The notes beneath the pieces were generated by a model, which ran no database searches, was not told where the DNA came from, and worked only from the letters and a program-made list of their open reading frames with translations. A DNA stretch of 64,000 bases from Deltaproteobacteria bacterium. Its GTDB lineage: Bacteria > Myxococcota > Myxococcia > Myxococcales > 40CM-4-68-19. The stretch's first letter is position 1; the number at the start of each line of letters is the position of its first letter. The position numbers were made by a program, and so were the translations under genes. Shown in pieces: positions 4,242-23,782 of this stretch. The DNA is taken from the NCBI GenBank assembly GCA_025358085.1, contig JANYKT010000019.1, positions 1-64,000 of the forward strand. The letters run 5' to 3'.

Positions 4242-4786
4242 AGCTCGAAGCCAAGCGCGAGCGTCACGTCCGGCGCCGCCTGCGCATGGCTGGAGCCTTG
4301 CACCTTGTCAGAGTGCAACAGGAAGTAGAGCCCACCGCCCGCGCCCGCTTCGATAACAAACGCGCTCCACTTCCATTGCCAGCCTGCGGTCAGCGTTGCG
4401 GCGCTGGAGTGGATCCAGTTGCCGGGCTGGTGCTCGGCCGGATCGCCTGGCGTCTTTTGGGTGTTGAAGGCAAACAGCGGCGAGACAAAGAAGCGGCCGC
4501 CGCGGTCGCCGCTGTACCAGCGCGCGCCAGCGACGGCGCCATAGCCGGGACCGCCGTAGGAATCGCCGAAGCCGAACGGGAGCGGGCTGACGTCCACGGT
4601 GGTGGAGGCGATCAGGCCGGTTCCGGCGAAGAGGGCGAAGTGGCCCGCGCGCACCTCGAGGCGCGCGCCGGCCTGGCCTTGCGCGAGACCGAGGCCCGCC
4701 AGCAGCGCGACGTGCACGCCTTCGTCGGCGCGGGCTGGCGTGGCGAAAAGAACCACGGTTGCGAGCAGGGCGGGGATCGGGCGCAC
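4238..4786 (-). CDS. Hypothetical secreted/outer-membrane protein
   Basis: GTG start at 4786; signal-peptide-like VRPIPALLATVVLFATPARA; Gly/aromatic-rich beta-barrel-like remainder. Confidence 0.6.
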   Translation of the reverse strand: MRPIPALLATVVLFATPARADEGVHVALLAGLGLAQGQAGARLEVRAGHFALFAGTGLIASTTVDVSPLPFGFGDSYGGPGYGAVAGARWYSGDRGGRFFVSPLFAFNTQKTPGDPAEHQPGNWIHSSAATLTAGWQWKWSAFVIEAGAGGGLYFLLHSDKVQGSSHAQAAPDVTLALGFEL

Positions 4787-4878
4787 CGGAAGAAGGAGTC
4801 CGCGCAACGGAGATTGGCCACCGCCACCGCGCCGCTTGGCCGTCCGCGGCCAGGGCTCGCAGGCGCCCGACCGTCGGG

Positions 4879-5565
4879 CTAGAGACCCTTGACGTCGACC
4901 AGTTCCCATTGCGCGTCTTCGACGAGGCCGACGCCAGCGGCATAGGTCTCGGTGTACTTGCGCAACGTCTTTTTGCCTTGGCGCTGCACCACGGCCAGCA
5001 CCAGGCAGTCGGCGAAGCTGCGCCCGGCCGCCTTGCAATTCTTGCCCGCGCTGCGGACGTTGCGCTCGAGAGCGACCGGGCCCAGGCTTTCGCGCCAGCC
5101 GGCCCCCACTCGCAGCGGCGCGGGCAGCACCAGCCGGTCCATCGTCTGCGGTTCCTGCGTACCCTCGCCCTTCGCGCGGACCATGAAGATGCCGGCTTTG
5201 CGCAGCTCGTAGGTGAGTTCGGTGGACGGCTTTGCCAGGCGGGCAATGATCATGGTGCAGGACTCGCGCAGCGTTCCGGCAGTGTCTGCGTCCGCCGGGC
5301 GGCTCTCGAGCACCTCGCACGAAGCGCCAGCGGGCGGCAGGTCTTCACGCCCGGCCGCGCGGCCCTCGTAGATGCGGATGAGCCCGGTACGAGAGGCAAA
5401 CCAGTGCGTCGGGTCCTTCGATGCCTGCCCGTTTGCGTTGCCGATCGTTCTTCCGGTTGTCGGGCCGGGAGGCTTGACCGGCACCCGGTGCGAGGTCTTT
5501 CGCGCCGACGCAGTCCCTGCCGCGCAGAAAAGCAGCGCGCAAAGCCAGAGCTTCAAGCGCGCCAC
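4879..5565 (-). CDS. Hypothetical secreted protein
   Basis: 228 aa ORF with signal-peptide-like MARLKLWLCALLFCAAGTASA. Confidence 0.65.
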   Translation of the reverse strand: MARLKLWLCALLFCAAGTASARKTSHRVPVKPPGPTTGRTIGNANGQASKDPTHWFASRTGLIRIYEGRAAGREDLPPAGASCEVLESRPADADTAGTLRESCTMIIARLAKPSTELTYELRKAGIFMVRAKGEGTQEPQTMDRLVLPAPLRVGAGWRESLGPVALERNVRSAGKNCKAAGRSFADCLVLAVVQRQGKKTLRKYTETYAAGVGLVEDAQWELVDVKGL

Positions 5566-23240: not shown

Positions 23241-23699
23241 ATGCGGGCAAATTCCATGTTTCTCGATGCCGGATCTCTCTTCCCCGCGCTGCGCGTGCAG
23301 ACGGTGGGCGGAGCTTTGCTCTCGCTGCCCGTCGACCTTGCGCACGAGTGGACCGTGGTGCTCCTCAATCGCGGACATTGGTGAAGCGTCTGCCGGCAGC
23401 AGTTGGCTGCCTTCCAGATCGCCCTGCCCAAGCTCGAGGCGGAAGGGATCGGCGTGGTCTCGGTTTCGGCCGATTCGCAAGCGGACGCCGAGCAGGAGGC
23501 TCTCGAGCTGAAGCTGACTTTCCCGCTGGGCTACGGCCTCGACGCGCTGCAGACGGCCGCCGCGGTGGGAGCCTTTCACGGCGAGGCCGCACCGCCCAGG
23601 AATCGCTTCATCCAGGCTACCGGGTTTGTGCTGAACGCGCAGCACAAGGTGGTGAACGCTGTCTACAGCTCCGGCGCGTACGGCCGCCTCACCTGGTAG
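23241..23699 (+). CDS. Putative selenocysteine-containing peroxiredoxin/redoxin (AhpC/TSA-type); in-frame TGA at 23382-23384 read as Sec
   Basis: Continuous frame: MRANSMFLDAGSLFPALRVQTVGGALLSLPVDLAHEWTVVLLNRGHW-[TGA]-SVCRQQLAAFQIALPKLEAEGIGVVSVSADSQADAEQEALELKLTFPLGYGLDALQTAAAVGAFHGEAAPPRNRFIQATGFVLNAQHKVVNAVYSSGAYGRLTW, stop TAG. TGA occupies the peroxidatic Cys position of the RGxWCxxCRxQL motif. Confidence 0.8.
23389..23418 (+). promoter_or_regulatory. Candidate bacterial SECIS (bSECIS) stem-loop
   Basis: UCUG-cc-GGCAGC-(AGUUG)-GCUGCC-uuc-CAGA directly downstream of the TGA; apical loop begins 17 nt after the TGA with G as second loop base. Confidence 0.65.
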
Positions 23700-23758
23700 G
23701 AGGTCCTCAGTCTGGTGGGGTATCTGAAGGCGGCCCGTGCCCCAGCCGCCGCGCCGAA

Positions 23759-23782
23759 GGCTTAGGCTTGGCTACCTAAGCC
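23759..23782. terminator. Candidate bidirectional hairpin between the peroxiredoxin and RluA-type genes
   Basis: GGCTTAGG-cttggcta-CCTAAGCC, perfect 8-bp inverted repeat spanning the convergent gene ends; no clear U-tract. Confidence 0.45.

Follow-up and report, generated by a model that had tools for sequence, protein, structure and literature searches.

A predicted Prx-like UxxC selenoprotein gene in a Myxococcota draft genome, with a second in-frame stop codon at the start of its C-terminal helix

We analysed a 64,000-nt stretch of contig JANYKT010000019.1 (the window), assigned to the phylum Myxococcota. The gene that begins at ATG 23241 is best explained, with a probability that we put at about 90 %, as encoding a Prx-like selenoprotein of the UxxC type in which UGA is read as selenocysteine (Sec) by way of a SECIS hairpin, this particular copy being cut by an in-frame TAG. 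With it, a Prx-like UxxC subfamily present in many phyla gains a further well-supported selenoprotein gene, one that ordinary ORF calling misses.

The reading frame and its in-frame TGA

A single frame runs from ATG 23241 through the TGA at codon 48 to TAG 23697, as a sequence-only reading of the same DNA had described, and direct reading likewise bore out its remark that ORF callers yield just a fragment, which starts at TTG 23403. With the TGA read as a residue, the AhpC-TSA family (PF00578) matched residues 12–137 at E 9.3e-13 and 48.6 bits against a cut-off of 26 bits, whilst the 3′ fragment alone scored 22.1 bits, under that cut-off. The claim that family similarity is found on both sides of the TGA therefore holds, the match spanning codon 48. 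The AhpC/TSA domain and a UxxC motif (U48-S-V-C51) are both present in the protein, and none of the curated NCBIfam models describes it, the best score being 24.6 bits where 211 would be required. For annotation purposes, the gene should not be named as a 98-residue fragment.

Immediately upstream lies a Cys-rich ORF (Table 1) whose stop codon abuts the ATG, making translational coupling of the two genes possible. Neither a Pfam family for this ORF nor a relative among the loci fetched was found, and no gene neighbourhood was conserved across the family beyond close relatives.

Table 1. Coordinates of the gene, its predicted recoding elements and adjoining features in the window
Feature	Position	Strand	Remarks
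Upstream Cys-rich ORF with lipobox-like LAAGC, 113 aa	22899..23240	+	Stop TAG abuts ATG 23241 (TAGATG)
Prx-like (AhpC/TSA fold) selenoprotein gene, predicted	23241..23699	+	152 residues, Sec at 48, motif RGHW-U-SV-C
In-frame TGA, predicted Sec codon (residue 48)	23382..23384	+	TGA in 39/53 relatives, TGC/TGT in 14
Predicted SECIS including short lower stem (23390–23392 with 23415–23417)	23390..23417	+	75.6 % of cells paired
TGC for Cys51, partner in UxxC	23391..23393	+	Aligns with peroxidatic Cys of true peroxiredoxins
Predicted SECIS upper hairpin GGCAGC-AGTTG-GCTGCC	23395..23411	+	Apical loop 23401–23405, 16 nt after TGA
TAG, probable nonsense mutation or sequence error	23697..23699	+	Gln column in relatives with W-Q-D-V-L tail
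Conserved remains of C-terminal tail (EVLSLVGYLKAARAPAAAPKA) and ancestral end TAG 23763–23765	23700..23765	+	Modelled helix 152–166

Relatives were sought with a profile built from four sequences of the window's phylum and scanned, in a motif-based search, over 85,462 species genomes; a single-sequence search of genome contigs gave no match where the profile search succeeded. The bacterial relatives of the subfamily (n=53, window excluded) carried TGA at exactly codon 48 in 39 cases and a Cys codon, TGC or TGT, in the remaining 14. All 53 thus have either Cys or the Sec codon in this column. The TGA forms were spread over approximately eight phyla (Nitrospinota/Tectomicrobia, Acidimicrobiia, Verrucomicrobiota, Gemmatimonadota, Pseudomonadota, Thermodesulfobacteriota, Nitrospirota and Myxococcota). 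Recurrence of TGA at this codon in 39 of the 53 relatives indicates that the open frame across it is not due to chance, and neither decay nor sequencing error can yield such a pattern in relatives of many phyla. Within Myxococcota, the nearest relative with TGA at codon 48 belongs to another genus of the family (genome G001) and is 42 % identical, and the nearest Cys forms come from two genomes of the window's order, the named records being Anaeromyxobacter. Nine positions (P15, R44, W47, Sec/Cys48, C51, Q54, L55, Y142 and R149) were invariant in 41 aligned members, window included. The window copy has changed a common Gly (column of residue 135) as well as the usual Pro-Tyr between Sec and Cys.

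On the tree the Cys forms made up one clade (100/97), for which one Sec/Cys change suffices; once paralogous Sec genes were added as an outgroup, this clade was nested among the Sec forms. This nesting favours a single Sec-to-Cys replacement, provisionally, as other Cys forms may have escaped the motif-based scan. The adjoining Sec branch (94/90, not starred) is the window's gene, with a long end branch of 0.65–0.71 against a median near 0.24. Since no other Sec branch lies closer to the Cys forms as a whole, it offers a useful point from which to study the replacement of Sec by Cys.

A conserved hairpin and the Sec machinery

The bases that follow the TGA in most TGA members, CGT CAG CAG TTG GCT GAC, fold as GUCAGC-AGUUG-GCUGAC with the loop 16 nt on, an arrangement that fits the published bacterial SECIS model (PMC13188914). 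The predicted element of the window has the same loop at the same distance on a 6-bp stem, with −19.2 kcal/mol when the lower stem is included. Upper-stem pairing was maintained in 99.4 % of cells (26 distinct sequences), with three of the six pairs altered on both sides, whilst the lower stem was less well kept across the family. For the structure as a whole the covariation score was 0.168, a value that none of 500 shuffles and none of the slid controls attained. Compensation is visible in the window copy: its Asp-to-Ala change (GAC to GCC) would break a stem pair; a silent change in the Arg codon, CGT to CGG, re-establishes it, so that U-A has become G-C. The stem and loop retain codons that are rare in the genes of the window (TTG at 7 % of Leu codons, GCT at 6 % of Ala codons), and when the peptide was recoded with synonymous codons, 0.7 % of draws gave a stem of equal length at the same place. 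Because the 66-nt stretch has a minimum free energy that is ordinary relative to shuffles (z −0.06), the case for the hairpin stands on conservation and not on folding energy. These data point to a SECIS specific to this family, which limits the choice of codons and has been retained through an amino acid change.

The Cys members, compared with the TGA members, lacked the conserved AGUUG hairpin. Nitrospinota/Tectomicrobia-type Sec members (L053–L058, L060, L063–L065 and L069) also lacked the AGUUG hairpin of other phyla, and their SECIS may therefore belong to another class. One such locus, L053, was seen to carry a second, tandem Sec copy (YRSHWUPYC) at approximately 4611–5189, just downstream of the first. 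The window's genome itself contains two further RGHWU Prx-like Sec genes (L022 and L023; G000:C95:26092 and G000:C148:3444) with GGU-loop hairpins after the TGA; the hairpin, CAGCTC-GGT-GAGCTG, was also observed in L012, another RGHWU Prx-like selenoprotein gene of the family.

This genome is a 5.42-Mb draft of 217 contigs, 98 % complete. It encodes SelA (E 9.5e-109), a SelB that scored over the curated cut-off and has the winged-helix SelB-wing_3 domain, and a SelD (G000:C203) whose own gene is a Sec gene, the active site carrying a TGA in the context GAG-U-ACK. No selC turned up in the assembly of 217 contigs with Rfam RF01852, two tRNA-Sec patterns or a DNA search whose query was a tRNA-Sec sequence modelled on selC of relatives, nor did ARAGORN report a tRNA-Sec around selA, selB and selD. 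The best RF01852 matches in the genome were rejected as ordinary tRNA-Leu and tRNA-Ser. A 99-nt tRNA-Sec was recognisable in five of 11 family relatives. The missing selC is probably an assembly gap. Of the four sel genes on which the sequence-only reading had made its proposal depend, selA, selB and selD are present, and selC was not found in this assembly, which counts against Sec decoding. Together, the cross-phylum TGA, the covarying hairpin, and SelA, SelB and the TGA-containing SelD support Sec at the TGA, and TGA 23382 is very likely a Sec codon. SelB and Sec-tRNA would decode it as Sec under the direction of the hairpin, an insertion event that we infer from these genomic comparisons.

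The second stop codon and the state of the gene

The gene had been taken to end at TAG 23697. A stop codon does stand there, but it is not the natural end of the family, as homology runs to TAG 23763. Past TAG 23697 the frame stays homologous over 21 conserved residues up to that second TAG, the profile match crosses both in-frame stops (‘1 TGA, 1 TAG’) at E 1.6e-54, and many relatives have W-Q-D-V-[LV] and a similar tail at the same place. The tail was modelled as a confident helix (residues 152–166). The TAG falls within the conserved domain and the terminal helix is lost as the sequence stands; the helix is counted as part of the domain by a criterion derived from relatives, which the papers do not state as defining. 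Among the matches listed, the window copy was the sole one from Myxococcota with an internal TAG. UAG acts as a normal stop codon, with TAG ending three of the eight window genes checked, and no pyrrolysyl-tRNA synthetase (PylS) was found in the genome. TAG 23697 stands at a Gln column of the relatives with the most similar tails and is one transition from CAG. These observations point to one of two simple origins for it where the C-terminal helix begins, namely a nonsense mutation of recent date (CAG to TAG) or an error in the consensus. Translation would stop before the last helix, and the protein may miss approximately 21 residues and may be impaired.

Which of the two applies bears on whether the gene is intact. 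We entertain, tentatively, an assembly or consensus error, under which the gene would be whole and end at TAG 23763: this is a draft of 217 contigs, one C/T difference would be enough, relatives with the same tail have Gln, and the tail is otherwise intact and forms a confident helix in the model, although nothing else in the gene resembles an error. We consider it rather unlikely that a former Sec gene is now decaying, with the TAG removing the last helix, the lineage perhaps losing Sec decoding and the TGA persisting as a relic. Such a history would accommodate a TAG that interrupts the conserved domain in this copy only and leaves a homologous tail readable beyond it, together with the missing selC, the changed Gly and Pro-Tyr pair and the long end branch, but the last of these says little because the family is sparsely sampled near the window's branch. 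Moreover, all nine invariant residues are kept, the SECIS hairpin has been preserved via compensatory change, GC3 between TGA and TAG is 0.865 against 0.873 in intact genes, and selA, selB and selD are intact.

Readthrough of UAG 23697 on the same mRNA in which UGA is read as Sec, such that truncated and full-length selenoenzymes would both be made, is highly improbable. That a Cys codon TGC was mutated or misread to TGA, with no Sec involved, is close to refuted: TGA is one change from TGC, the nearest clade is the Cys clade and selC was not found, yet 39 relatives from many phyla share the TGA at this codon, followed at a fixed distance by a conserved covarying hairpin that Cys members lack. 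Scarcely credible, too, is a recoding of UAG (e.g. as Gln or pyrrolysine) with two stops read through in one mRNA, which continued homology past the TAG might suggest, given the lack of PylS in the genome, the use of TAG to end other window genes, and a column that is Gln in relatives with the same tail and is not catalytic. Our preferred reading remains a UxxC selenoprotein gene with UGA decoded as Sec and this copy cut by a TAG.

Active site and relation to known systems

The model of the fold has a pLDDT of 91.8, and structures of peroxiredoxins and of ResA match it; the predicted 152-residue form was also modelled well, without the last helix. Profile alignments paired Sec48 with the Thr of the peroxiredoxin PxxxTxxC motif and with the first Cys of the ResA CxxC, and paired Cys51 with the peroxidatic Cys. 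The sequence-only reading had placed Sec at the peroxidatic position, which is therefore off by one turn. When aligned to SiPrx (6q5v), the family lacks the canonical Thr/Ser three residues before the peroxidatic Cys, Sec48 standing there instead, and the Arg before the AxFIID strand (VRAVFIID in 6q5v), which we take to be the catalytic Arg of peroxiredoxin, aligns with Gln (LQATGFVL). Sec48 and Cys51 would occupy the N-terminal end of the first active-site helix and alternate between selenol/thiol and selenenylsulfide, the enzyme reducing peroxides or disulfides with a thioredoxin-like protein as electron donor. We infer this selenenylsulfide cycle as the likeliest chemistry from the alignments and the model.

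Several known systems share features with the predicted protein. SelL-related proteins (NF040769) are AhpC/TSA-fold redox kin and their model was among the nearest for the other two Sec genes of the genome, but these scored 47.7 and 40.0 bits, far under the cut-off of 120, and the window protein scored 16.1. ResA/TlpA proteins have a CxxC in register with the UxxC, and a search with the family profile recovers ResA structures at E 2.2e-13; by contrast, the window gene has no evident signal peptide, has Sec for the first Cys and carries a C-terminal YSSGxIGR segment. PrxU (TxxU; NF040737) likewise combines the AhpC/TSA fold with an active-site Sec, but there the Sec occupies the peroxidatic position, whereas the window protein has Sec at the Thr position and Cys51 at the peroxidatic one, and it reached 14.4 bits against the NF040737 cut-off of 270.

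The closest resemblance is to the Prx-like UxxC selenoproteins (PF00578). A UxxC-type ‘Prx-like protein’, with UxxC instead of TxxU, was described from the Sargasso Sea survey in 2005 (PMC1088965); ‘Prx-like 1’ was named in the GOS survey (PMC2398784) and a ‘Prx-like thiol:disulfide oxidoreductase’ in a further study (PMC13188914). A match between the second Cys of the CxxC and the peroxidatic Cys has also been drawn for Cys members of the Prx-like group (PMC3514251). The sequence-only reading had noted Sec forms with a UxxC motif in several Prx-like bacterial families, and the predicted protein is of the kind described in 2005, in which Sec is the first residue of the motif (PMC1088965). The AhpC/TSA fold, a distant similarity to peroxiredoxins, Sec as the first residue of UxxC and the existence of Cys homologues are all shared, and the window gene is on solid ground a new member of this known kind. 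Its subfamily, likened to the published ones by description, is marked by RGHWU..C and YSSGxIGRL, and the window copy carries an extra in-frame TAG.
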